Shown piece after piece: positions 1,009 through 25,212 of a DNA stretch of 64,000 bases. The stretch is from Deuterostichococcus epilithicus (taxonomy: Eukaryota > Chlorophyta > Trebouxiophyceae > Prasiolales > Stichococcaceae). The DNA is taken from contig JAVTLE010000007.1 of NCBI GenBank assembly GCA_033439295.1, forward strand, positions 1,612,001 through 1,676,000, in the 5' to 3' direction. Positions within the stretch are counted from its first letter, which is position 1. The number at the start of each line of letters is the position of its first letter. Below the pieces are notes generated by a model. That model saw nothing but the letters and a program-made list of their open reading frames with translations. It made no database searches and was not told the DNA's origin. The translations under genes were made by a program, and so were the position numbers.

Positions 1009-3194
1009 TTACTTGCTCTCTGCCTCGATCTCTGCCTCGACACCCTCGGCCTCCTTCTCCTTAGGCTTCATCAGATACAGCAGCCCCGCGAGCGATCCCG
1101 CTGCGAGAAGGCCCGGTGCTTTCTGCAAGAGCCACAGCCAGGGCATCAAGGACTGTGGAACAGCCAGCCTTGCAGCCATAACCAAGAACACTGCGTCTGA
1201 GAAACCAGTTCCAGACATGTTATGCAGAAACTTGGGGTAGCTTTGATTCCATTTATATTCTTGATATATCAAAATTAGAAGACGTTTGCGCCAGTTGCCA
1301 GCATCATCCCGCAGACGACAGGCTGAACAGCTGTACCTCCATTTCCTCGACCCGTGCGCTGCCGAGCGTTTTGACACATGCCATGCTGTCGTGTCCGCAG
1401 ACCACGGCATTGGAGCCTGTACCTAGAATAGCACACGCACTGACAGCGCACCAGCAGATCAAAGGGGTTGAAGCCGTCTTCGTCCTGTTCCGCACTCGGC
1501 GCGGTGGCTGGCTTAGGCTCAGGCTTGGGCTGTTGGCGCGCCGACTGGATGTCAGCACGCGGGTTGCCCGATGCTGCTGGCTTGTCCTGCGAATCACGGT
1601 GCAGGGTTTGTGATGACGCTGGCCTCCTGTCCTTCTCTGCATGGGCACATGCTGCACACTGCAGATGAGTCTTAGCATCCGTTTTAACATGCTTGCCTGC
1701 TTCGCAGAGGGCGCCTGCGCCTGCTTCGCAGAGGGCGCCTGTGCCTGCTTCGCAGAGGGCGCCTGCGCCTGCTTCAAAGAGGGCGCCTGCGCCTGCTGCG
1801 GGGCTGCTGCCGGCGCCTCAGCCTTGCGCGCCGCCACTGCCTTTGCTGCCGACGCCTCCGCCTCAGCCTTGCGCGCTGCCATTGCCTTTGCCGCTGACGC
1901 CTCCGCCTCTGCCTTTACCCGCTGCGCGTTAGCGGCCTGCGCCGCAGCTCGTGCCTGTTCCGCCTCCTGCGCCTCAGCCGCTTGACCCTCCGCCGCACGC
2001 TGTGCCGCCTGCTCCTCCGCCCGTGACTCTGCCGCCGACGCCTCCGCCTCTGCCTTCCACAAGTCTGCTGCCCTCTGCGCCGCCTCCTGTCGCAGTATCG
2101 GGGCCAACGCTGGTTGCCGTCAAGCCGAGTATGGATCGAGGGCCGGCATGAAGATACAATCGACGTAGCAAAAGCTTAGGAGGTCAGTGGTGGCCTTCAG
2201 ACGGAGCTGCTGCCAGCCGACTGGATCAGGGACGCTGTTGACTTGCCACAGATTTCGCTGCGCGGTGCGGGTGCTGAGGCTGGTACCAGCAGCGTGTGCA
2301 TGCTGCACCACAGGACATGTGTGCCCGGCGTCCAGCAGACAGGCGAGCTCACACCTCAGCCTGTTGGCGTGCGCGGGCCAGCTCCACGCGAGAAGCCTCC
2401 AGCTGCTGCCTCAGTGCCGTCAGCCCCTCCTCGCCGCCAGCGCTGTACTTACTCCGCGGCGACTCCACCTGACAGCAATGGCAGTTGGAACATGAACGGC
2501 CTGTCCCTGCTGCCACGTCCGGGTGGAAACCTCTGGATCGACGTGCCCACCCTGTAGTTGAGGCGGCTAATCCAGCTGTCGCATGGCGCTGCCTGTGCAT
2601 CAGTCCCAAGTTGAGGCGCCGTTAAGTTGATGTGACGCCATTACTGATGGCAGCTACTGCTGCACCTTCTGCGGGATGACGTATCGATTTCCAGCGGGCG
2701 TCTCGCTGATGCGCTGCCGGATCGCAGCACGCATCTCCTATGGCAAACATGCAGTGCCGCTCGGACCTCGGGAGGGTTCATCAGCTTTTCACTAGCGCTA
2801 AGCATGACACAAGCAGGCTGCAGCCTAGCAGAGAAGGTCCATTGCATTCTCAAAAGCTTGCGCACCTCTGCGCGGGAGCGTGAGGGAGCGGCCTCCGCGG
2901 TGCGATCCAGCAACCCAGCGTCCGTCGCATTGCACACCAGCGCCTGTGCAGAGTGCCAGAATGTCAATGAGGGTGCAACGGCTCGGAGAGTGGCGGAAGC
3001 GTTTGTCAAGTTGCAGATCGCACCCCTGGTAACAACACGTCCATGCAATTCAAACGGCTGTGCACTTCGCAGCCGTAAGGCAGCGCTTCGTTCCGGGACA
3101 TGGGAGCGAGTATCACTCCATCTGCAGCTCTCTGTCGAAGTCGCACCAGCGAGGCGGCCACAGCCGCTGTGCCACCGAGCGTCTTTCGGGCCAT
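1009..3194 (-). CDS. alanine-rich coiled-coil protein with C-terminal membrane anchor (predicted 285 aa)
   Basis: Predicted exons on the minus strand are 3194-3066, 2943-2866, 2737-2666, 2429-2355, 2086-1697 and 1122-1009; all joins agree in phase. The protein starts MARKTLGGTAAVAASLVRLR. It continues into a long Ala/Glu/Lys coiled coil (exons 3-5), four copies of an eight-residue QAQAPSAK unit, and a final exon with one hydrophobic segment (GLLAAGSLAGLLYLM) followed by a charged tail ending EAEIEAESK. The anchor and cytosol-like tail suggest a membrane-tethered scaffold, but no family is recognised. The intron after 1697 has a CAG/GCAAGC donor, so it would be a GC-AG intron. Exon 1 is the least certain; its ATG at 3194 was chosen because it is the first in-frame ATG leading to a good donor. 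The last exon could instead be a separate 69-residue single-exon frame starting at 1218. Confidence 0.55.
1690..1800 (-). repeat. 24-base in-frame tandem repeat (four to five copies)
   Basis: A 24-base unit repeats with few changes inside the coiled-coil exon and codes for QAQAPSAK on the minus strand. The period is a multiple of three and the frame is preserved. It behaves as a coding minisatellite, so its copy number may vary between strains. Confidence 0.85.
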
Positions 3195-10389: not shown

Positions 10390-13300
10390 ATGAGCGGCGG
10401 GAAAAAGAAGGTGCGGCCCTACCCCTTTTAAAGTGTTGGCGCGCGGCGCCGCATGGACTCGATGCCAGGGCATGCATCCGCGCACCAACTGCCTGCCTCG
10501 CGTATTTGTCCAGGATGTTAAAGCGAGCGCGATCGACGCCGCAGGGTGTTCACTGCAATGATGAGCTCGGACTCGACCTGCTGCCGCGCAGGTGGCGTAC
10601 TTTTATGACCCAGATGTGGGATCCTTCTACTACGGACCCGGCCACCCCATGAAGCCGCACCGCGTCAAGATGGCGCACTCGCTGATTCTGCACTACGGGT
10701 TGTATCGGCAGATGGAGGTGCGGCGGCCTGCGGCGATGCACTCTTCAGCGCGGCTGCGGCATCCACGGGGGCACCTTCAGGAAGCCTGCATCAGGAATGC
10801 CGCAGAAGCCACACCTTGCACGCGATAGGTGGCGAACCTCAGGCAGTAGCGAAAGTCCTGTCTCAAAAGCCTCGGCTGAACCCTACGCGCAGGTTTTCAA
10901 ACCAGTCCCGGCGACGGACGAGGCGATGTGCAAATTCCACGCGCCCGACTACATCAGCTTCCTGAAGCATATCTCGCCTGACAACCAGGTACTTGCTGGG
11001 CTGCGTGCGATTGCTGGTTGCAGAGACAGCTCGTGACCTCGGGCGCTCCTGCAGGCCTCACTGCATCCCCTGGCGCAGCGCACGAGGCGCTAACACAGGT
11101 CGCCACTGGACATTGGCTGCACATCCAGTCATGCACTGACTGAATGCAGAGTCAATATGGTCACACACAGCGCACAAGCGGGCAGCGCGGCAGGCACTAC
11201 TTTGTCGCCATCCCGAATATGCGTGGAGTGTGCCAGTGTGTTTGGGCCACCCTCCCGATGCACTTCGGTACACACCAAAACACTGCAGATATCACCCAAT
11301 GTGTTCCGGAAATGGGTCGACAGCAGAGGCCTGGGATCTGCACGCTCTCGAACTTCAGATTACACAGCAACCTCCCGCTGTGCCGCCTTCCAGGAGCAAT
11401 TCGAGGAGGCGCTGCAGCGGTACACTGTGGGCGAGGACTGCCCCGTGTTTTCGGGACTCTACGAGTACTGCACCAAGTACGCCGGCGGCTCCATAGGCGG
11501 CGCCGTGAAGCTCAACTGGGGCTCCGCAGACATCGCCATCAACTGGGCCGGCGGCCTGCACCACGGCAAGAAGTCGGAGGTGGGCGACAGCTTCTGCAAG
11601 GTCACATTGATCAGACGGCACCCTCAGGGGAGGGAGTGTTGCGCGGCGTCGTGCGGGCGTGGGGATCGGGAATCCCTCACGCTCTGGAGCGCGAGCGCCG
11701 TCAAGCACATGCTGGCGCTCAAAGGCTGCACAATGTCCGCATCCTCAGCATCATCAAGCAGAGAGTCGGCCACATGGCGGAGGCTCGCTCGCATTAGGGC
11801 CCGAGGGCGACTTGGGCCGCATCAGCGGCAGCGGCCACTCGTGGGGTGCTCGCAGGCAGCGCAGCCGCAGCCCAGTGCAGCATTTCAAGTGCCGAGGGCG
11901 CACCCTGAGGCGGCCGCGCACAGAACCCGACCCGTGCACGTTCTCGGCGGGTCGCCTTGCCAACTGAGGCCATGTCGCCTGCGGGCGAGCGGCCTCGGCT
12001 GTGTGAAAGACATCGCGCTGGCCATCCTGGAGCCGCTCTTGTCTCTGAAACATCTCGTGTTTGAGTTCAAACTGAAAAGGGAAAATTCATGTACCCAGGC
12101 GAGCGGCTTCTGCTACGTCAACGACATCGTGCTGGCCATCCTGGAGTTACTAAAGTACCATGCCCGGGTGCTGTACATCGATATCGACGTGCACCATGGC
12201 GACGGCGTGGAGGAGGCCTTCCTCACCACAGGTGGGCCGGCAATGCCTTCAGAGTGTGTGCAGTGAGCGCGAAAAAGGGCTTCTGCAGAAGTCCTGCCAA
12301 GCCTCTGAGAAGTTTCTTGCAGCAGGCACGCCGCCTGCGTGCTGCTGTCCCCAATCATTGGTGCCAGAGCTGCTGCACCGTGGCATGGTTTCCATGCGGC
12401 AGCGTGTACCGCACCATGCGGATATCTTGTCCTTGTCCCGCTGAGTTGCCGGCGCTCTACATGGAAGCCTTTGAAAATTGACGTCCACGAAGAGCTCCTG
12501 CCTGCGCAGACCAGGTGATGACGTGCAGTCTCCATAGGGGCTGCGCACATGCACACCCGAGGATACAGCAACACCTGGGATCTGACGCCATGTCTCTGCC
12601 AATGCAGACCGGGTGATGACGTGCAGCTTCCACAAGTACGGCGGCGGCTTCTTCCCCGGCACCGGGGACGTGCTCAACGTTGGCCGCGGTGCGTCCTGCG
12701 GCGCCAGCCCCTCACGCTGCATGTCAGTGCCAGCTGCTGCGGCTGAGCGGGAACACTGGAGATGCCTTCAGCTGCTGCAAAGCCGGCTTCGCAGCAGCTT
12801 GATGCGCCTGGAGCCTGCTGCCTGGTAGACATGAAGCGGTTTCTCTTCTCTCTCTGCTGACACACGTGCAGCGCTCACCCGTTCTCTACACATCACCACT
12901 CAGTAGCGATAGCGATCCCACCGTCCGCCAGCCCCTGACACTTGTGCTGCATGCATACCGACTCCAGGCGCGGGCGAGTACTATGCTGTCAATGTGCCGC
13001 TGCGGGACGGCATAGACGATGCCACCTACGAGGGCCTGTTCCGGCCTGTCATCGACAAGATCATGGCGGCGTACCAGCCGGAGGCTGTCGTCTTCCAGTG
13101 CGGTGCGTCTGCTTCATCTTCCTTCCAGTCCGCCTTTGTTTCTGTCCCTCTTGTTTCCCCCCTCTCACGGCTCACTCAGAGTGCGGCTTCCACCTCCGCG
13201 AGCACCGTGGCAACGACTGACTCACCTGCAGAATCTTGGCAGTCAACACCTTTACATCACCCTGCGCCAAACGCGGGTGCGGACTTGCTGGACGGCGACA

Positions 13301-14985
13301 AGCTGGGCGACGTTCAAGACCTGAGCGTCGCCGGCCGTGCAGCTTGCCTGCAGTGGCTGCAACGATCCGTCTGGTTTAGGCCCCGTCCGTCCCTGCGCCG
13401 CGCAGGCGCGGACTCGCTGAACGGCGACAAGCTGGGTGTCTTCAACCTGAGCATTGCCGGGCACGCGGCGTGCCTGCAGTACGTGAAGGGCTTCGGGCTG
13501 CCCATGCTGGTGGTCGGTGGCGGCGGCTACAAGATCAGCAACGTGGCCCGCTGCTGGGCCTTCGAGACCGGCACCATCCTGGGTGCGTCAGGGTCTCATA
13601 TCATGTCGCACCTGGTTGACGACAGTCTGCAGGAGACGACAGGCCGGTGTCGCGTGCGAGCCTGCGGTGCCGGGATCCGTGGCTGGCAGAAAGGTTCAGG
13701 CCGGAAACTCTGAGGCCGCCAAGGCGCCGCTGACACACTTCCGTCATGCCCAGCAACCTCAGCCCCTCTGCACGGCCCTCTTTTCATTGCACCGTCTCCA
13801 CGTGTGCAGACACGGCGCTGGAGGACCGGCTGCCGCCCAACGAGTATTCCGAGTACTTTGGCCCGTCAGCGGTGCTGCAGCCGCCGGTGGTCAAGGAGAA
13901 GGAAAACCAAAACACGCCCCGCTACCTGGAGCAGGTCAGGGTTTAGGATTAGATCGGCCCCTTCCATGGAGCATGGTGCACCTTGTGTGGAGCATCCATG
14001 CACCTGGCCCAGCGCACGCGCTCTGCGTGTGCATGCCTGTCGCGCTCCCGGGTTGCACGGAGACCCAGGGGAATCTCCGGCGCCACGGCACTGAGGCCAC
14101 GTGACGAGGCGGGCCCGCCAGCGCGGGGCCGTGGCGAGGTGTGCGCGGCCTGACGCACTGTGACGCGCAGAGGCGGTGGCCTGACGTGGATATTTGTGCC
14201 TGCCCTGCAGCTGCGGGCGCAGATTGCGCAGAACCTGTCGCACCTGAAGGGGCCTCCGGGCGTGCAGTTCCATGAGCGGGCGCCAGACGCCATGCAGGCG
14301 GACAACCTCGCCACCGTCAGCCGCCAGGTGGGCCATTCCCTACTACCCGGCCCAAACACTTGTCAGGGGAGGGATGGTGCTCAATGGGATTTCGGGACAA
14401 CCGCTAGAGTTGCATTTGAGGCTGCCAGCGGGCACACTAGTCGCGCACCGCAGACCGAAACCATGCCCGAGTTGCAGCAGTCTGGAGCTGCGGGCACCCG
14501 AGATGGACTGCGTGAACTGGTGTCATGTACGCTGCATGACCAGCCCCACGACATATGGTCTGTCAACCCTGAACGCTGCGCCACTGGCTCTTTTGCAGGA
14601 GCAGCAGGATGGTGCACGGCAGGAGTGGGACACCCCTGGGAGCCGCAACGAGCAGAGCTTCCGCGACGCCAATGGCGCGAGCGTCGCCGCCGGGCCCGGC
14701 GCAGCAGCGCCCGCCGTCAGCGCTGCGCAGCAGTCCCAGCCGCAGGCCGGTGCCGCCTTGCAGGCGCAGCCACAGCAGCCGCCGCAGCCTGCAGGCACGG
14801 CGCCGGGGCCGTTTGCTGCGGGGGGGACGGGCCGCTCCCCATCAGTTCAGGAGTCGTTAGCCAAGCTGCGCCAGCCACTGACATTTGTCGACAGGCGCGC
14901 AACGGCACAAGACGCCGGCGGCGGCCCCGCGGCAATGCACATCGACTCGCCAGAAGGCAGCCAGGCAGCAGGCGTGATGCAGTAG
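10390..14985 (+). CDS. class I (RPD3-type) histone deacetylase, predicted 527 aa
   Basis: Eleven exons close in phase: 10390-10410, 10592-10717, 10893-10988, 11394-11579, 12099-12231, 12608-12688, 12968-13102, 13406-13582, 13810-13934, 14211-14327 and 14599-14985. The first exon is only seven codons (MSGGKKK) and runs into [10 protein letters not shown], the usual HDAC start. Active-site blocks are present: [74 protein letters not shown] and MLVVGGGGY. These cover the catalytic His pair, the Asp/His zinc ligands and the glycine-rich loop. The enzyme removes acetyl groups from histone tails in the nucleus and usually works in co-repressor complexes. The last exon is a long Ala/Gln/Pro-rich tail that makes the protein slightly longer than plant HDA6/HDA19. 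Introns 4, 5 and 7 contain decayed copies of the following exon, annotated separately. Confidence 0.92.
11985..12032 (+). repeat. decayed copy of the start of HDAC exon 5 inside intron 4
   Basis: Aligned without gaps to 12099-12146, 41 of 48 bases match. The copy has lost the AG acceptor present before the real exon, and it would encode KDIALAILE beside the real NDIVLAILE. Similarity fades sharply after 12032. Confidence 0.85.
12510..12538 (+). repeat. decayed copy of the start of HDAC exon 6 inside intron 5
   Basis: About 24 of 29 bases match the real exon beginning at 12608, and the AG acceptor immediately before it is still present. It breaks down where the real exon continues into HKYGGGF. 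Confidence 0.75.
13276..13356 (+). repeat. decayed copy of the start of HDAC exon 8 inside intron 7
   Basis: About 80 bases resemble 13406-13484 with roughly four fifths identity and a three-base length difference that keeps the frame. It would encode [11 protein letters not shown] and later AACLQW beside the real [11 protein letters not shown] and AACLQY. The frame is open from the copy into the real exon. Confidence 0.85.
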
Positions 14986-15704
14986 CTTCTGGGCGGGAGC
15001 GGGGTGCCGTGACGCATGGTTCATTGTTCAGTATGATCTGTAGTGTAGAGGAGGCGCTCTTTCGGAGCTTTCTGTCGTGGTCCGGGAAGCAGTTGCGCAA
15101 ATGAGTAGGCTGTGTTTTGGGGCTTTGTAATTTCAGTTGTGCACGTCACATTTGGCCAGCGGACATGCCACAGCACCACCTGCCACTGCCGTGAAACAAT
15201 GCTTCCGCTAATCGAGCTGTGCATGCTCATGCTTTGAATTGTCGGACGGCATTCCGCATCCTCGCTACATTTGACATGCAGCCACCTGCAGGTCACAGCT
15301 TTGCAGTCATCTCTATCATGGTACCTCTAGCAGGTGATCGAATCCCAGATGCGGCATCCAAATGCGGCAGCTCTGTCTTGTCGCAGCACTGCATGGATGG
15401 AGTGCGTACACTTGGCCCTGAGAACCCACTGATATTTCAGTCGCAAGAACGTTCGACCAAATAGTTCCGTCGTTCTCTGCAGCACCGAGCCCGCTTCCAC
15501 CCTCACTCCCAGCCTGCTAGCGCACGCAAGCTGGCACAAGGCGTGTCAACTGCGGTAGTGGTCGTGAAACTGCTGACCTGCTACACTCAAAACTCCGCCT
15601 CCTGCTGGAGATACTGGTGCATCCATTGTGCACTCACATTCTCAACGTCTACAGCAAGCCCCACTCCATGTTATTCACCTGTCACCGCAACTGTGACCGC
15701 ATTG
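14986..15704. other. 3' flank between convergent genes, with a TGTAA signal
   Basis: This lies between the HDAC stop and the stop of the minus-strand coiled-coil gene. A TGTAA at about 15126-15130 fits a green-algal polyadenylation signal for the HDAC transcript. No exon or RNA gene is apparent. Confidence 0.4.
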
Positions 15705-17639
15705 TCAGTTGTCAAACCCCTTGAATGGCTGCTGCTGCTGCTGCTGCTGCTGCTGCGCCGCCGCCGGCCTCCCTGCGCCGGCTCTGCTGGCGCCCCTGCC
15801 GGCGCTCGGGCTCCCGACGCGGCGCGGCTGACCCATGCCGACATGCCTCGCACGAGCCGCAGCGGCCTGCTGCCTCGCCTGTGCCGCCGCTGCCGCCTCG
15901 GCCGCAGACAGCGCCGGGCTGCCATTGACGGCTGCAGGCGGGCTGGCGCCGCCGCTGCCTTGCTGCTGCTGCTGCTGTGCGTCCGGGGCCTGCCCGTCGG
16001 CCAGTCCAGCCTGGTCAGCGGCAGCAAGCTGCGTGGCGACGACAGAGTCCGCGGCGCTCACGCCGGCCGCCTCGCCTGCCGCAAGCTGCGCGATGCGCTG
16101 CTGCAGCTCCGCCGTGACCTGCACCGCAATCGGAAGCAGCCACAGGTCAGCGGCTGCCTACATGATAGGTGCGGTGTGAAAAAAAACTCTTGGCAACTAT
16201 GGCCCCTACGACACCAGGAACGGGAATACCGCGAGGCGCCGGCAGGCGCTGCTGCATCGACCTCAAGCCGAAATGAAAGCATGCATTCTGGGCTGAATGT
16301 AGAGTTCACCGCGGGCGCGCCGGCGGGCGCGTTCAGGGCCTCCAGACGCCGCGTCAGGCTCTCCAGCTTGTCCAGCTGCGCATGCGCCGATTGCTGCACC
16401 TATCGCCAGGTACCGGCAAGGAGCGGGCGGTCAGGAAGGCTGGATGGACGGGTACATCTATGCTGCGGTCGTGTCAGAGCCGCTGGTGCGATCAACAACC
16501 GTCGAGTTTCGAGCCTGCCGTCGGAGCGGCCTGCAGGACGCTGCCAATGCCACAGCGGACCAGCATGCCGTACGACCCCAATGCAACAGACACTGTTGTG
16601 CATGGTATGTATTTGACCATGCATTGGCAGGTGCTTGCGCAAGCAGGGTTGTGTGTGTGCGCTTGCTTTGAAGGCGGAAAGCACACCAGCAGATTGAGCT
16701 CCTGGCACAGCTGTTCCTTCGCCCGCTCCTCCACCTTCAGCCGCTCCCCAGCTGCGTCCGCCACCTGCACGGGAGCAGAACCACTGCTATGGCGACACGC
16801 AGGTGGCAGCGGGTGACCACAGCCGGCGGCAGATTTCCAGCATGCGCTGCCCGCTCTGGCCAGGGCTCTGCACAGGCGCCGACGGTGCACGCAGTGCATG
16901 AGGGGGCTGAGGCGCTGCTGCAGAGGCTGCTCCAGCTGCATGCGCATCGTGTGAAGGCTTGTCCAGCAAACACTCTGTCTGTGCCGGCCGCGCCCCCGGG
17001 GAGCTGCAGGGCACGGAGAGGCACCTTCTGGGCGGTGACGGCGTCCAGGCGCGCCGCGACCACCCGGTCCGTCTGCGACTCGATCTTGCGGCGCAGCATC
17101 TCGAGCGCCGAGCGCTTCGGGCCGCTGGTCAGCTTCAGCTGCAGCTGCAGGCCCTGCAGCTCCTTCTCCACGCCCTGTATCCTCGCGTAGTTCTGCTGGA
17201 TCACGCTGCGCGGCACAAGGGGCCTGTCAGCGTGTTGAGAGGATGAGTGGTCCACCCGCTCTTGAACCCCTTCAACCATGCAGCTGTGCGCAGGCATGCA
17301 GAGCTCTTGCAGAGACAGGCACGCAGAACCTCGAATGTGAGCGGCCATCGCCAAGGACGCGGCTGCTGCGATAAGCACAATGTGCATGCAGCGGAAGGCG
17401 TCAGGATGCGGGTCGGCGCCGCCAGGCGAGGTGGGGATTGCGGAGACAACGGCTCACTTCTGGAGCTCCCGCTCCTTCTGCTCCAAGAATCTTTCGCTGA
17501 TGTTGACGCCGCGCAGGCGCTCGCCAGCGTCCGCCCAGGTCTGCTCCTCAGCCAGCGCCAGCTCAGCGGAGGATGCGCGCACGGAGTTCGCGGTGCCGCA
17601 TGCAGTTGCCGGCGCCGCCGCGATTGCGGCTTCAGCCAT
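15705..17639 (-). CDS. coiled-coil protein with polyglutamine C-terminus (predicted 314 aa)
   Basis: Five exons on the minus strand, 17639-17458, 17205-17025, 16764-16687, 16399-16310 and 16118-15705, all join in phase with GT-AG borders. The protein starts MAEAAIAAAPATACGTANSV. It has an extended coiled coil covering FLEQKERELQ, EKELQGLQLQLKLTSGPK, KIESQTDRVVAARLDAV, GERLKVEERAKEQL and DKLESLTRRLEALN. It ends in an Ala/Gln-rich tail with a glutamine run near the stop. No enzyme motif, signal peptide or membrane span is visible. Taxilin-like and golgin-like proteins share this look, but I could not match either, so the function is unassigned. Confidence 0.72.
15728..15756 (-). repeat. trinucleotide run coding polyglutamine
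   Basis: A run of CTG triplets on the plus strand reads as CAG on the minus strand and codes for about nine glutamines just before the stop of the coiled-coil gene. Shorter CAG runs also occur at about 15961-15975. Confidence 0.85.
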
Positions 17640-18241
17640 GACGCTTTCGGCCCACTAGCCCCTGAGAGTCAGGAATCGATCAGCGAGATCCTCGTGCTCC
17701 TCGTTGAGGGCGGCAGTCAGCTGCACGCAGTGCATGTACCGCTGCACCTGTATTGAGCTGCTGCACCCTGCTGTGTACACACCTAACTCAATACATCGAC
17801 TGCAGTGCGCTTTCCTGAGCCTCAAAGCTTCCCATTGAAACGACTTCCGTGCACGCAGTTCGGTGCCGTTCGACAGTCCGACGGTTGGGGCAGGCTGTAT
17901 GAAGCTTGCGGCCGATCCGCCAAGGCACGGATGCTGCCGGCTCGCAGGCTGTATGCGAACTTTGGCGGATGGAGCTGGCAGCTGCGAGTGCAGCCTGAGT
18001 GAAGCCAGCCGGCCACCCGCTGGCTGACTTCGTCAGGTCATGCTGAGGTGTCGTGCTGATGATGCAGCAGCTGGCATGCACCCAGAGACAGCAGAGTTTT
18101 CGCAACAGAAAAGTTGTGTTGATGCTAGTGGGAGGCCGAGTTTCATCCGCCTATGTTTGAAGCTGAACGCGTAGATACAAATCTGCTGCTGAGTGTTGGC
18201 CCAAAATCGGCTTGCTTCGAGCTACAGATAGCACAAAGGGC
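17640..18241. promoter_or_regulatory. divergent promoter region between the coiled-coil gene and the GET3 locus
   Basis: The two genes start in opposite directions about 600 bases apart. No conserved box could be identified with confidence. Confidence 0.4.
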
Positions 18242-21200
18242 ATGACAGCAATGCAGCTGTCGCTTGACAACCACACATCGATTCAAAGCCGCAGAATGTC
18301 CCACGGTTTAGCTTGCGGCAGCGGCAGAGCACCGGAGATGCGCATGTCGCATGCGGCGGGTGCGAAGCGTCGCGGCAGGCATGCAATTCGATGCAGAGCA
18401 TCGCCGACCAGCTGCCACCAGACGACTGGGTGTTTGCATAGAGACAAAGCACGCACGCAGGTGCGATTGTGGCCGATTGCACTCGCAAGTGTGCTGCTTG
18501 CACCCGTGCCGAGCACGGTGCCGCAGTCAGCGCGTGTGACGCCTGTGTTGCGTGCGCAGGCACTACCTGCCGGCAGGGCATCCCTGGACAGCCTTCGAGC
18601 CGGCCCCCTCAGCAGGCGCAGCAGAGGCAGACCGCTCATGCATATTGCGGCGCAACAGGTGACAGCCCATGCAGCTGCCGGCAGCGGACAGCCCATCTCC
18701 CCGCCCGGTAGTTTTAACCCATCATATTCATGTTCAATTTGTCGCCGTTCCGGCTGTTGCAAACCCATGAACAAGCAGCATTTTCCGTTAGCCTGGGAAA
18801 ACCTGTTGCTTTGCAGGTGGTGCATGTTGCAACGGCAGAGGAGGTGACAGCCAGCCCGACCGCCTTTGAGGAGTTTTCTGCGGGGACGGCCCGAAAGTAC
18901 ATCATGATAAGGTCTGCTGAGCATGCCAGATGCTTGAGGCTCGATATGTCGGCACGGTATTCCTGATGGGATTGGAGTCTGTCAGGCCTACATGAGCTAC
19001 ATGCACGCCTTAACGCCTGTCCTGCTGGCCACGATAACAGCGGCAAGGGCGGCGTGGGCAAGACCAGCCTGGCTGCGTCGCTGGCAGTGAAGCTCGCCGC
19101 CGCGGGGCACCAGACGCTGGTCGTCTCGACCGACCCTGCGCACTCCCTGTCGGATTCCCTGGACCAGGTGGGCTTTCTGAGCACATCGGTGCACTTAAGA
19201 AACCATCGCTGGGACAGGATGGTCAGTCGATGGCAGCCCGTCATGCATGCTGCGGCACCCAGGCGCCCGCGGCGGCGTTACCCAGCGACAGCTGGGATGC
19301 TCCTCGACCCTGCCACGACAATTGGCAAGGACTCCACCTCCCACGTGAGGCTTTTGCTGTTCTCGAGGTTGAAACCTCAGCCGCACATCATCTCCCCCCA
19401 CGCCCGCAGGACGTCAGCGGCGGCGCGCCCGTCATGCTCGGCGGCTCCGACCTGCCGCTGTGGGGCATGGAGGTGGACCCGGAGGCGGCGCGCGCTGAGT
19501 TCCGGGCGGCGGCGGCGCAGGACGAGGGCGCTGGCGTCAAAAACTTCTTGGGCGGCATGGGGCTCGGCATGCTCGCAGACCAGCTCAAGGACCTGAAGCT
19601 GGGGGAGCTGCTGGACACGCCGCCGCCCGGGCTGGACGAGGCAGTCGCCATCGCCAAGGTAGGATAAATGTGCGGGTTGCAGGGCCCGTGTCAGGGTGTC
19701 AATCGCGTGTTTCTGATGCCCCAGCTGCTGCGTCGAGCCCCAACGAGGCTCAAGCAGGGCCTGCGCCGAGAAGCTGGCGGCGGCCGACCACTGGCCGGAC
19801 TCGTGACAAGGACAGCTCGTTGACTTCTGGAAACTGGCTGGGAGAGGGTACGATGATGCCAGAAGGCTGCCTGCTGGCTCATGTGCCAGGAGAGGCATGC
19901 GGCAGCGACCACATGCATTCGGCAGGAAACGACCTGCGTCTGGACCTTTGCACGCTTGTGCACTTCACTCATGTGCTTGCCAGTGTTGTCAGTGCTTCGC
20001 TCTTGTTGTGCCATCCGCCTGCTGCGCAGGGTGTGGATTCTGCCAAGGGGGAGGAGTATGCTGCACAGTTCCCCCCGAAATGCTATGCGTTAATCACAAG
20101 CTGTGCAAACAGCTGGAATGCAGGAAAACGGCTCATCTGCCTGCGGCGCAGGTGGTTGAGTTTGTGAAGGGGGAGGAGTACGCCCGCTTCAGCCGCATCG
20201 TCTTCGACACGGCGCCAACGGGCCACACGCTGCGCCTGCTGGCGGTGCCGGAGTTCGTGGACGCCAGCCTGGGCAAGATCATCCGCATCCGCAAGCGCCT
20301 GGCGTCGGCGTCGTCGGCGCTGCGGGGCCTCTTTGGCGCCTCCGAGAAGCAGGACGAGGCGGTGGCCAAGCTGGAGCGGCTGCAGGTGCCATCTCCCTAA
20401 GTTTGTTGCTGCATAACCACCACCTGCTGCCCCTCTACCTAGCCTTCAAGTCGCCAGTGCAGCCAGAGCGTCTGCACTCCGCAAGCCCTTTGTGGTGCGA
20501 GGCCTGGCTATTCATGTTGTTGTTGTTGAGGATGTTTAGGGCTCGCAGGACGAGGCACCAAGCTCGGACGTCTTCCTGTGCTTTGGATCACGTGCAAAAA
20601 GCCAGGGGTTGCTCAAGATTTGAGGTGATGGCATGTGCGGCTCATGACCAACGCCGGCGGGCTGCGCACGCACAGGCGAGCGTGCTGATGGTGAAGGAGC
20701 TGTTCCGGGACGAGAAGCAGACGGAGTTTGTGATCGCCACCATCCCCAGCGTGCTGGGCGTCAACGAGTCGGCGCGCCTGGCGACCTCGCTTCACAAGGA
20801 CTCGATACCCTGCCGCCGCATCATCGTCAACCAGGTGACAGCTTCAAGCATTGCTCAGTCCATTACCGGGCTTACCTTACAGCTCCCCGAATCCCTTCTG
20901 GAGCAGAGCATTGGCGCGCCGCCGCCATATCTAGCCGATGTAGGCGAACATGTCTGCCTGACTCCACAGGGGCCATTTCAGCAGCAGACAACGCGCACGC
21001 GCCGCCACTGCTTCTCTATTCTGGCTCTCGATAATGACCGTGCATCATCTGACCGCCACATGCAACTGCCGCAGGTGGTCACAGAGGCCATGGGGGAGAA
21101 GTACATCGCCATGAAGCTCAAAGACCAGGAGCGGGCGCTGCAGATCATAAACGGCGACCCAGAGCTCAGAGACCTGCAGCAGCTGACGGGGCCACTGCTG

Positions 21201-24200
21201 GACCTGGAGGTGCGCGGCCCGGCGCCGCTGCGCTACTTTGGAGACGCGCTATGGGCGCCCGCCTTCGAGCAGATGTCTGCGAGTGAGTACAAGCGCTTTG
21301 TCTGAGGTCAGCAACTGAGCTGTACACGGGGTGCAGGGCTCCGCGGCTGGCAGCGATGCCGCAAATGCAAGGTCGCTGTGCTGGATCCACCCCTTTAGCC
21401 CCTCACGTAGCGTCTGAAGCAGTTGTTGAGACGGTAGTGCTGTTGGCTGCAAATTGGTTATATCGGCTCTTGGCCTGCATCCCACAACGAGCTGGCTTTG
21501 TTTGCAGGCCCAGAGCGGCGATATGTCATGCTTGGCGGCAAGGTGAGGATCCACCCTGTGGCGTGCTGCAGCATGTCACTTTATGCTGCACGGTCGGGTG
21601 CAGATGCTTTCAACTTGCCTATGCCACGGTGCTGTGATGGCCCCACAGCCCAAGTCCGCCTGGCATCGGTGGCACTACTGTGCAACCTGCCTGTGATTGT
21701 GCAGGGCGGCGTCGGCAAGACCAGCTCCGCGGCGTCGCTGGCCGTCAAGTTCGCCGCTGCCGGGCACTCGACGCTGGTGGTGTCCACAGACCCTGCGCAC
21801 TCGCTGTCGGATGCGCTCGACCAGGTGCGCGCTTGAGCAGCCTGCGCCTGGGACATGTGTCTGCCGGAGGGTCCAAGGCGGTGCTCCTCGTGAAGGCGGA
21901 CCCTCTCGAGCACCTGGTTCATGACGTGCTGGAGGTTCCACACCCTGGGAGCCACCTCTCCAGCGATGAGCAGGCGGCCTGGTGCGGCCGTGGCCCTGGC
22001 CCTTGCCACAGTGCCAAGCATCAGCGCCTGACGCGGCAGTTGGCTGGACGGGCAGCTGCTTAGCTGCCATGGAGGCTCGGGATGCCGCGGCAAGGAATGA
22101 GGTGTCACACAGGACGTGAGCGGAGGGGCGCCCGTGGCGGTGGAGGGCACCGACCTGCCGCTTTGGGGCATGGAGGTGGACGTCGAGCGGGCGCGAGCGG
22201 AGATCAAGGTGCGCCCTGTGCCGGCCTGCGGCCGCTGTTCTCCTGGATGAACAGAAGAACAGAAGATCGGGGCTCCCGGCACAATCTGATCAGCTCCCTC
22301 AGCTTCAGAGCTCTGCCCTGAGGCCACCTCGACCTCTCCGTGCGTCTGTGCGCCTGTGCGCCTGGGGACGGTTGCAATTAGGAAACCTGTCGATCGGCAG
22401 GACTGACGGCTTGGTCGCTCGCAGGCGGTGGCTGCGGAGGACAGCGGCAGCGGCAACAACAAGGCGCAGCAGTTCCTGTCGTCGGTGGGCCTGGGCGCCT
22501 TTGCCGAGCAGCTGCAGGACCTGAAGCTCAGTGCGTCCCATTGCAGTCCCGTCTGCCGCCTGGCGCCTGTCCGTGCCTGCGCCCCATGCCCGCCTGCCGA
22601 CAGGAGTCTTGCTGCAAGACAAGCCTCGAGGGGCAACTGGCGCTGTGATGCTGTCTGGTCGGGAAAGCAAGACCACCTTGCAGGGCCACTTCACCTGAAA
22701 GCAGCTGCGCCTCGACGGATATTCCAAACAAAGTGCTGCCGCGCCTGGGGCATGAGCCCCTCCATATTTGTACACCAAACAGCATCCTCGCATCCAGCTC
22801 CTTTCTGCTGCTGCTTGTCTCAAACCCAAGCGAGCTGCTGGATGAGCAGCCGCTGGCGGTGGATGGGGTGGTGGCCATCTCTCGATTGCAAATGAAAGCA
22901 GCATAGTCAGTCTGCACATCTTTCAGATCTTCGAATTCCGCAGGCGAGCTGCTGGACATGTTCCTGCTGGGGTCGGACGAGGAGGTGTGGTGCATCCTCC
23001 GCATTGATGGTGTTAAGCCTCTGGTCCGATGAATCAAGAACTGCAACCATCGTGCGTCATCCACCACTTCCTGTCTCCGCAGGCGAGCTGCTGGACACGC
23101 TGCCGCCGGGGGTGGACGAAGTAGTGGCCATCTCCAAGGTGGTGGGCTTCCTGCGGGCGCCCGAGTACGCGCGGTTCACCCGCATCGTGTTTGACACCGC
23201 GCCCACGGGCCACACGCTGCGCCTGCTCACGCTGCCCGACTTCCTGGACGCCACCATTGGCAAGGTGGGTGAGGCCTCTTCCCGTTGTGGCAATCGCACC
23301 ATCACAGATCTCACGGATATCCCACGTTTTAGGCTACAGGCAAAGGGCGCACAGGCACATTCGTTTGTCGCCCGGTGGCAAGCCAAGCCTGAGTACTGGC
23401 CAGCCAGATCTGTCTGTTGCAACATGTGGTGCGGCTGCGAGCGGAGTTGACGGGCGGGAACGGCGCACACGGACCTTCCTTTGTTGCTCTGTGGTGATCA
23501 CGCCTCACTGCGTGACCAGGCCCTCCTCTTCCGCCCTTCAGGTGGTGCGGCTGCGGGCGAAGCTTACTGGGGCGGCGGGAGCCATCAAGGGCGTCTTCGG
23601 CATCAAGTCGGAGCAGGACCCGGCCGTCGCCAAGCTGGAGGCCCTGCAGGTAACCGCCATCCCAGCCAGGGTCATCCGCTTGAGAATGGTATTGCGTAGA
23701 AAGCGGAGCAGCAGGACAAGGCCGCCGCCAGGCCAGAGGCGCACCAGGGCTGCGCCGCTTCCGGGTGGTGTGACTGTCCGAGAGGCGCTGCAGGCATGCA
23801 CCAGTGCAGGCGGTGGGACTGGTCTACCCTGCCGTCCAGGTGCCGCTCCCCCGCAGCACCCACGCACCGGATCTGGTGCCCGGCAGACCTGCCCTCCCCT
23901 GCCTGCGCCGCGCGCGCGCGCCTTGGGGGGNNCTCTTGTAAGAAAGGGGGAGGGGGAGCTCTTCGCAGGATCCACTGCCGAGCTCGTAGCAATGCGGGCA
24001 CAGCTCTGGCGCTGTCAACCCAGCGGCCAGAACGGCAGCTGGACCTGCCACCTGGCCGAGCACCAGCCGCCTCAGAGGCTTTGGCGACCGACCAAAAGGT
24101 TTGCGACCCTGCCCCCCCGCGCCTGCTGTTTTGACAGCCAGGTGGAACCCTTCAACCCTGATCTGCCGCAGGCGCGCATGGAGGAGGCACGGGCGCTGTT

Positions 24201-25212
24201 CCGCAACAAGGAGACGACCGAGTTCGTCATCGTCACCATTCCCACCGCCATGGCAGCCGCGGAGAGCGGCCGCCTTGCAAAGGTGCGCCTCCCGAGTGCC
24301 ATCCTTGGTGCCCACATCGTCTCGTTTCGCATGGAAGCCGCGCTCATCGTTCCCGCGGCTGATCGAGCGACCGCTCCGGCAATGCAGTGTCGCATCCCGC
24401 CAGCTCCAGCACGGGGCGCCCCACAGCCTCCTGGATTCGCCACCAGTGTTGTTCCACGCCTGCGCGCGACCACCCCACATGACGGACCCGCTCAGGGCAG
24501 GAGGAGGAGAGCACACCCGGAGAGTGCCACCTGCAAACCGTAGAACCTTCTATGCGACCCATGGCGTGTCATGTGTCCGCAGGCGCTGCGCGCCGAGGGC
24601 GTGCCGGTCAACGCCATCGCGGTCAACCAGGTGCTCGATGCCGGCGCCTCGCAGAAGTTCCTGGCATCCAAGCGCGCCGACCAGCAGCGCGCGCTGCACA
24701 AGCTGCGCACGGACCCCGCCCTCAGGTGTTTTGGTTTTGACCGAGGAAAGTCCCGCCGCTCTCCGTGGGGTCGAATCAGCCTGGGGTGCCGCGGCGCCGG
24801 CGGCGACGGGGCGGTCGGCCTGCGTCGCTGCTCGCTGCTGTTGCATCTGTGCCACTGGTGTCGGCCTCGTAGCGGCAGGGCGGCGGGATCTGCAGGCAGG
24901 CCGAGCAATGCAGGCTCTGCAGCTGGAACCACCTCGCCGGGTCCTCCGTTCCACCACTGCACACTTTGGTTCGGATTCATACTCCGGGATGCATTCCGTG
25001 TGCCGCTGGGGGCTGGAGGTGACGGAGGCTCCGCTGGTGGACCCTGCTTGGCACCCTTTGGTAGATTCCCCGTCCTTGCCAACAACAACCTGTAACACCG
25101 AGCTGATCCTACTCTGCACAGGGGCCTGGAGGTAACGGAGGCGCCGCTTGTGGATCTGGAGGTGCGCGGCGTGCCGGCGCTGCAGTACTTTGGCGGCATA
25201 GTGTGGAAGTAG
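18242..25212 (+). CDS. tandem GET3B/ArsA-type ATPase; two modules, possibly one spliced 760-residue protein
   Basis: Module 1 exons are 18242-18460, 18817-18911, 19041-19167, 19410-19658, 20152-20385, 20676-20834 and 21075-21305 or 21282. Module 2 exons are 21508-21542, 21705-21824, 22113-22208, 22425-22530, 23083-23264, 23542-23649, 24172-24282, 24583-24725 and 25122-25212. Both carry the deviant P-loop ([32 protein letters not shown]), [22 protein letters not shown] and a VEVRG- or LEVRG-type end. GET3 ATPases deliver tail-anchored proteins to membranes. The [14 protein letters not shown] block and the lack of a CxxC pair fit the plastid GET3B/ArsA1 branch. Exon 1 looks like a transit peptide (HAIRCRAS). 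Module 1 has its own TGA at 21303-21305. However, a GTGAGT donor at 21283 joins in phase to the AG before 21508, giving [12 protein letters not shown] and a continuous 760-residue frame, and module 2 has no good start of its own. Confidence 0.85.
20030..20070 (+). repeat. decayed copy of a GET3 module 1 exon start (exon at 20152)
   Basis: The AG acceptor plus about 40 bases resemble the exon beginning at 20152, most clearly through the GGGGGAGGAGTA core that codes KGEEYA. Similarity is roughly 70-75 percent and then fades. Confidence 0.7.
22830..22885 (+). repeat. first decayed copy of the GET3 module 2 exon at 23083
   Basis: Aligned without gaps, about 42 of 56 bases match the first 56 bases of the exon at 23083. 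The shared blocks are the GAGCTGCTGGA start and GTGGCCATCTC near the end. Confidence 0.8.
22944..22990 (+). repeat. second decayed copy of the GET3 module 2 exon at 23083
   Basis: This lies between the first copy and the real exon. The CGCAG acceptor and the following 19 bases are identical to the real exon, and the next 25 or so are diverged but alignable. Confidence 0.8.
23426..23458 (+). repeat. decayed copy of the GET3 module 2 exon at 23542
   Basis: The first 14 bases are identical to the real exon start, and about 25 of the first 30 match. The AG acceptor is absent before the copy. Confidence 0.75.
23931..23932. other. two ambiguous bases in a GC-alternating run
   Basis: Two N characters follow an alternating CG tract and a run of G. 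This is a sequencing or assembly ambiguity inside an intron of the GET3 locus and does not touch an exon. Confidence 0.95.
25009..25042 (+). repeat. decayed copy of the last GET3 module 2 exon (25122)
   Basis: About 29 of 34 bases match the start of the real terminal exon. It would encode [10 protein letters not shown] in both copies, after which the upstream copy loses similarity. Confidence 0.8.

Follow-up and report, generated by a model that had tools for sequence, protein, structure and literature searches.

Growth of introns is usually attributed to transposons and small indels. In the AGGT model of exonic tandem duplication, exon DNA becomes intron DNA, and the mark of the process is a repeat spacing equal to the length of the intron. 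According to the respective reports, a duplication across an intron-exon border in a potato RdRp gene took its splice signals from the parental border (PMC4974935), direct repeats in young Daphnia introns have been ascribed to staggered double-strand breaks and proposed to lengthen introns (PMC4202315), and filled-in 3' overhangs have been found experimentally to give small tandem duplications in mouse cells (PMC8355091).

Here we examined the window, meaning the whole 64,000-nt stretch that was analysed (C6:1612001-1676000), together with a second region of the same genome. About one in ten introns in the examined stretch carry a worn, same-direction copy of an adjoining exon's edge, which suggests intron growth by duplications of about 100 bases across exon borders. 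As in the AGGT model, exon DNA would thereby become intron DNA through tandem duplication, and the border-spanning units with parental splice signals and the direct repeats recall the potato and Daphnia cases.

Exon-edge copies in the HDAC and GET3 genes

The window contains an HDAC gene, the model of which, without the shadows (decayed copies of exon edges lying in introns), aligns over its full length to human HDAC2 (PDB 9jv3). The exons and shadows concerned are as follows.

11984..12032, + strand, shadow of the start of HDAC exon 12099-12231 (86%, offset 114, AG lost)
12099..12231, + strand, HDAC exon, real copy (joined model aligned to HDAC2, PDB 9jv3)
12498..12545, + strand, shadow of the start of HDAC exon 12608-12688 (77%, offset 98, AG kept)
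12608..12688, + strand, HDAC exon, real copy (HDAC2 alignment)
13272..13354, + strand, shadow of the start of HDAC exon 13406-13582 (offset 129 then 126, AG lost)
13406..13582, + strand, HDAC exon, real copy (HDAC2 alignment)

The third shadow contains a 3-nt shift, flanked by stretches of 89% and 81%. Positions 18817-25209 hold a tandem two-module, ARSA1-type GET3 gene with an uncertain first exon. Its closest solved relative is the ATPase ARSA1 (5zme), a Chlamydomonas protein.

20012..20061, + strand, shadow of the start of GET3 exon 20152-20385 (80%, offset 122, AG kept)
20152..20385, + strand, GET3 module 1 exon, real copy (gene model; DNA match to module 2 exon)
22827..22881, + strand, outer shadow of exon 23083-23264 (80%, offset 253, AG lost)
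22937..22987, + strand, inner shadow of exon 23083-23264 (80%, offset 139, AG kept)
23083..23264, + strand, GET3 module 2 exon, real copy (ARSA1 alignment)
23343..23457, + strand, unit upstream of exon 23542-23649, made up of an intron part and a shadow (23423-23457) of the exon start (offset 116)
23542..23649, + strand, GET3 module 2 exon, real copy, with a shadow on either side (ARSA1 alignment)
23710..23748, + strand, donor-side shadow of the end of exon 23542-23649 (source 23612-23650, offset 98)
25008..25041, + strand, shadow of the start of the last GET3 exon (88%, offset 113, AG lost)
25122..25209, + strand, last GET3 exon, real copy (ARSA1 alignment)

In module 1, the segment 20150-20277 matches the module 2 exon at 23137-23264 (79% at the DNA level), which itself aligns to ARSA1. 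In module 2, two predicted pieces, shadow-derived or neighbouring, are insertions relative to ARSA1, one of them being the inner shadow 22937-22987, which our gene finder called as an exon (22944-23009). Given the alignment of the HDAC model to HDAC2 and the lack of counterparts for these GET3 pieces in ARSA1, it is the downstream copy that is the true exon in these genes. The unit upstream of exon 23542-23649 is similar throughout (61% over 112 nt, with 81% over 32 nt in the shadow), and the copy of the end of the same exon scores 20 (p 0.02) in intron 23650-24171 of the hand-corrected GET3 model.

Among the 24 introns of the HDAC and two-module GET3/ARSA1 genes (GET3 model hand-corrected), seven contain a copy of the start of the next exon. 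For six of the 24, the next-exon score was equalled by none of 300 exons from other genes and by none of 300 shuffled introns; the seventh carrier, intron 19659-20151, gave p values of 0.023 and 0.033 on exon letters alone. Intron 22209-22424 gave 0.007 and 0.023, the match lying 21 nt inside the exon and not at its start, intron 19168-19409 gave 0.063 and 0.013, and the remaining 15 showed no next-exon match against the other-gene-exon and shuffled controls. An earlier note on this DNA had described same-strand copies of exon starts in the HDAC gene and both GET3 modules, and eight such copies in seven introns bear this out; the AG that it saw retained in several stands at the matching place in three of the eight (12498, 20012 and 22937), and the exon that it reported behind two successive copies is 23083-23264, preceded by 22827-22881 and 22937-22987.

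Prevalence, spacing and intron length

The sample comprised 264 kb (the window plus C1:500001-700000), or 0.56% of a genome of 46.8 Mb in 21 contigs, with a G+C content of 62-63%. Genes were predicted using a self-written, self-training gene finder, yielding 50 genes and 509 introns (median 251 nt in the predicted models); it recovered 8 of 8 hand-marked HDAC exons, the sole mismatch being one base at the end of the last exon. GC replaced GT at approximately 14% of predicted donors in the model trained on these two regions. In C1 genes, the finder decided which copy was the true exon, and Pfam names were used for CDC45, mitochondrial carrier, S19e and IF3. Some shadows were miscalled as exons by the finder; two of these, C1 78382 and window 22937, were set by hand to acceptor type, the finder's wrong exon start for C1 78382 being used in the splice-signal and register counts and corrected in the simulation comparison.

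Every predicted intron was searched for matches to the exons on either side of it at a score of at least 20, the exons of other genes providing the expectation. The own next exon was matched by 34 of the 509 introns, compared with 1.9 expected, and the own previous exon by 18, compared with 1.6 expected; reverse-complement matches numbered three and zero, respectively, and the next-but-one and previous-but-one exons were matched in 5 and 3 of 459 cases. With shuffled introns, a comparison that the earlier note had proposed, only 0.4 next-exon matches were expected. The pattern is not confined to the two genes. At least one copy was present in 48 of the 509 introns, both kinds occurring in four; the carriers comprised 6 of 119 introns in the window and 42 of 390 in C1. 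Window introns matching the previous exon numbered none under the finder model and one (23650-24171) with the hand-corrected GET3 gene. Acceptor-side copies outnumber donor-side copies by 34 to 18 across the 509 introns, an imbalance that a simple duplication model does not predict.

Local direct repeats were located by ungapped self-comparison (score at least 20, offset 40-639, two control offset ranges), revealing 16 in the window compared with 1 and 0 at the control ranges, and 97 in the 200 kb of C1 compared with 0 and 2; these counts take in coding minisatellites and an intergenic array. After 25 of 133 were set aside as overlapping arrays, 108 non-overlapping pairs remained, with a preferred spacing of 80-139 nt (50 pairs; 7 at 140-159 and 17 at 180-279), and 68 of the 108, with spacing up to 170, entered gapped realignment. 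Left out of some or all later counts were the coding minisatellites at C1 49146 and window 1695, window 13319 (the same shadow as 13272), and C1 96704, 33268 and 70998. Pairs with a core ending more than 25 nt from the splice site were left out of the splice-signal, register and intron-part analyses, and those with a spacer under 15 nt were left out of the intron-part homology test. A repeat array with spacings of 48, 72 and 141 nt lies within a predicted coding sequence at window 1694-1915 (minus strand), and an intergenic tandem array with a period of approximately 153-158 nt occupies C1:652961-653402 (C1 sample 152961-153402) and the next copies.

Carrier introns (n = 48) had a median length of 417 nt compared with 242 nt for the others, and were still longer after subtraction of 115 nt (p = 0.003), in agreement with the earlier suggestion that introns grow in this manner. 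The 48 carriers were not clustered by gene (p = 0.43). Copies also form arrays, as in CDC45, where four shadows lie 131, 260, 383 and 508 nt upstream of the exon.

A contig end carries TTTAGGG repeats, giving TTTAGGG as the telomere sequence. Together with the size and G+C content of the genome and with ARSA1 as closest solved relative of the GET3 gene, these repeats suggest a green alga. Of the 20 perfect (CCCTAAA)2 or (TTTAGGG)2 internal sites (L038-L057 on C1, C3 and C4), hereafter interstitial telomere sites, 14 have a predicted exon-intron border no more than 45 nt away. Among the 509 introns, C-rich telomere-like 10-mers were donor-near in 23 of 81 cases (13.3 expected) and acceptor-near in 28 (19.8 expected), and the G-rich form, donor-near in 13 of 67 (9.4) and acceptor-near in 12 (13.6), showed no clear excess.

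Decay of the copies

Mismatches in the shadows at codon positions 1, 2 and 3 numbered 102, 126 and 175, which is the pattern that free change in the shadow, combined with exon change mainly at third positions, would produce. Three stops were found in 658 shadow codons, compared with 6.5 expected under free decay (P 0.095), and coding constraint on the shadows was rejected on these two counts. AG was kept in 19 of 31 acceptor-side shadows and GT or GC in 12 of 18 donor-side shadows, roughly as the overall identity predicts.

Origin of the copies

The copies lie near their sources and in the same orientation, as tandem duplication implies. We consider it probable that, many times in this nuclear genome, units of approximately 85-145 nt were duplicated in place across exon borders and then decayed, lengthening the introns. 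The most likely cause would be staggered breaks or paired nicks that were filled in and joined, with filler DNA sometimes added between the two copies. A unit across an acceptor would leave an unused acceptor and exon start upstream, and one across a donor would leave an unused exon end and donor downstream; the gene would survive through splice-site choice, as an intact splice site still adjoins an intact exon, and the spare copy would be free to decay within an intron longer by one unit. Repeated events would produce small arrays, and the exon part of some shadows may later have been refreshed by gene conversion. The earlier proposal, in which an acceptor and the exon start behind it are duplicated and the unused copy then decays, is supported in part. 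It needs widening to the ends of previous exons, which are copied too (18 against 34 of 509), and simple decay does not account for how abruptly the best-matching pairs lose similarity at the splice site.

Any unit spanning a border yields copies that start at the first exon base, and it is thus the intron part of the unit that needs explaining. This part measures 27-118 nt in 30 of 31 acceptor-side pairs, leaving room for the CTGAC motif, which peaks 20-40 nt upstream of acceptors. Intron parts were homologous (gapped test, p<0.05) in 7 of 46 pairs compared with 2.3 expected, comprising 2 of 29 acceptor-side and 5 of 17 donor-side pairs, and in a few units, among them window 23343 and C1 177557, similarity covers almost the full length. 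By contrast, same-register identity drops at the splice site from approximately 73% in the exon to approximately 36% on the acceptor side (-25 to -7) and 28% on the donor side (+8 to +24). Compared with a simulation of plain tandem duplication and neutral decay (uniform ages, random sequence, three indel rates), the 15 pairs with an identity of at least 0.86 had an intron-part identity of 0.24, the chance level, against 0.51-0.75 simulated, and the 31 less similar pairs had 0.34 against 0.42-0.54; the simulated cores ran more than 10 nt into the intron in 45-73% of pairs, whereas the observed ones did so in 12 of 46. The CDC45 copy at -260 matches in 65 of 70 positions of its exon part (93%) and 30 of 50 of its intron part (60%), with a 2-nt frameshift, and resembles the exon more than does the copy 131 nt off (71%). 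The chance-level intron part points to later exon-to-shadow conversion, filler DNA or copying bounded by splice sites. As it is at chance in the 15 high-identity pairs and homologous in others, plain duplication is the best frame, with one of these three additions needed for some pairs.

The drop at the splice site, the low intron-part identity of the 15 pairs and the CDC45 copy at -260 would all follow if the exon edge, and not the adjoining intron, were copied in, or overwrote an old shadow by conversion. As the principal origin of the copies this is rather unlikely, since in some pairs similarity runs through the entire unit or the intron parts are homologous, and a test for mosaic structure was weak (5 of 49 pairs at p<0.05). 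Flanks are moreover unlike the adjoining exon (mean score 6.04 compared with 6.17 in the control, 40 pairs), giving no sign of spliced cDNA, the capture of which was rejected. That exons re-stamp their own edges by such exon-bounded copying or conversion, keeping shadows fresh, and that introns grow largely thereby, we regard as doubtful to the same degree. Less probable again is that staggered breaks took up filler DNA, in some cases telomeric repeats, while fill-in duplicated the flanking exon edge. At a few horse loci, telomeric insertions arising from staggered breaks are reported to be accompanied by direct duplications (PMC7215372), and in four of the high-identity pairs the spacer appears telomere-like by eye, wholly at C1 sample 35875 and 78382 and partly at 131255 and 79351; however, a spanning direct repeat was found at 5 of the 20 interstitial telomere sites (score at least 14), with two (L039 and L050) reaching at least 20, and C1 79351 has homologous intron parts (p 0.036) and hence need not be filler.

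The earlier note had also considered mutually exclusive exons and mixing of alleles in the assembly. Retention of AG or GT/GC by many shadows and the stop count below expectation, though not significantly so, are compatible with relics or live cases of alternative exons, but the copies end inside the exon: 46 of 48 hold just 24-85 nt of its edge, where this reading calls for complete exons, each with an open frame between two splice sites. Spacings are divisible by three in 17 of 48 cases, and the codon-position pattern fits free decay, making this origin very improbable. An assembly artefact, in which alleles or haplotypes were stitched in tandem, is equally hard to credit, as the divergence between copies is mostly 7-30% in substitutions, arrays can number five copies, and a single 2.5-kb query with GET3 module 1 found its own locus and module 2 and no second locus beyond these. 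An introner element would be expected to recur at numerous unrelated loci, and for this one query no match outside its own locus and module 2 was seen.

Test for intron creation, and implications

Creation of introns from coding DNA had been raised as a further outcome. Repeats offset by the intron's own length were in no general excess among 338 introns of 50-300 nt (5 with at least 30 of 76 matches compared with 4.5 expected; 1 with at least 34 of 76 compared with 0.26), and intron birth as a general process was rejected, one ambiguous candidate being found. A one-sided version of the test yielded this one clear case among 451 (25 of 34 matches, 0.00 expected): C1 sample 138663-138797 (C1:638663-638797), a 135-nt predicted intron whose opening bases repeat the next exon, the spacing of the two copies matching the intron's length. 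It may represent an intron birth or, as the preceding 24-nt predicted exon is doubtful, an ordinary shadow with CAG|GTGCG taken for a donor by the finder.

With a datable exon-edge copy in about one tenth of the sampled introns, intron growth by duplication could be measured event by event, and a genome rich in shadows offers a way to study the spliceosome's choice where a splice site has a twin. For annotators, the copies are a warning that a gene finder can take shadows for exons.

Comparison with known systems

Among the matches listed in a search of open-licence PMC articles, as judged by titles and the starts of abstracts, widespread exon-edge copies in introns were not described. Here the spacing that marks the AGGT model is not in general excess. 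A single event made a new intron in the potato RdRp gene, as summarized in PMC4974935, whereas here many events would have lengthened existing introns. The Daphnia repeats shared with the adjoining exon measure 4-12 bp (PMC4202315), compared with mostly 24-85 nt of exon here, held within units of approximately 85-145 nt in 48 of 509 introns. CST-guided Pol alpha-primase fill-in predicts short in-place direct duplications and would be a candidate mechanism for those observed here; its demonstration was at Cas9 nickase breaks in mouse cells (PMC8355091). Relative to these parallels, the present case differs in how long and how frequent the copies are and in its preferred unit.
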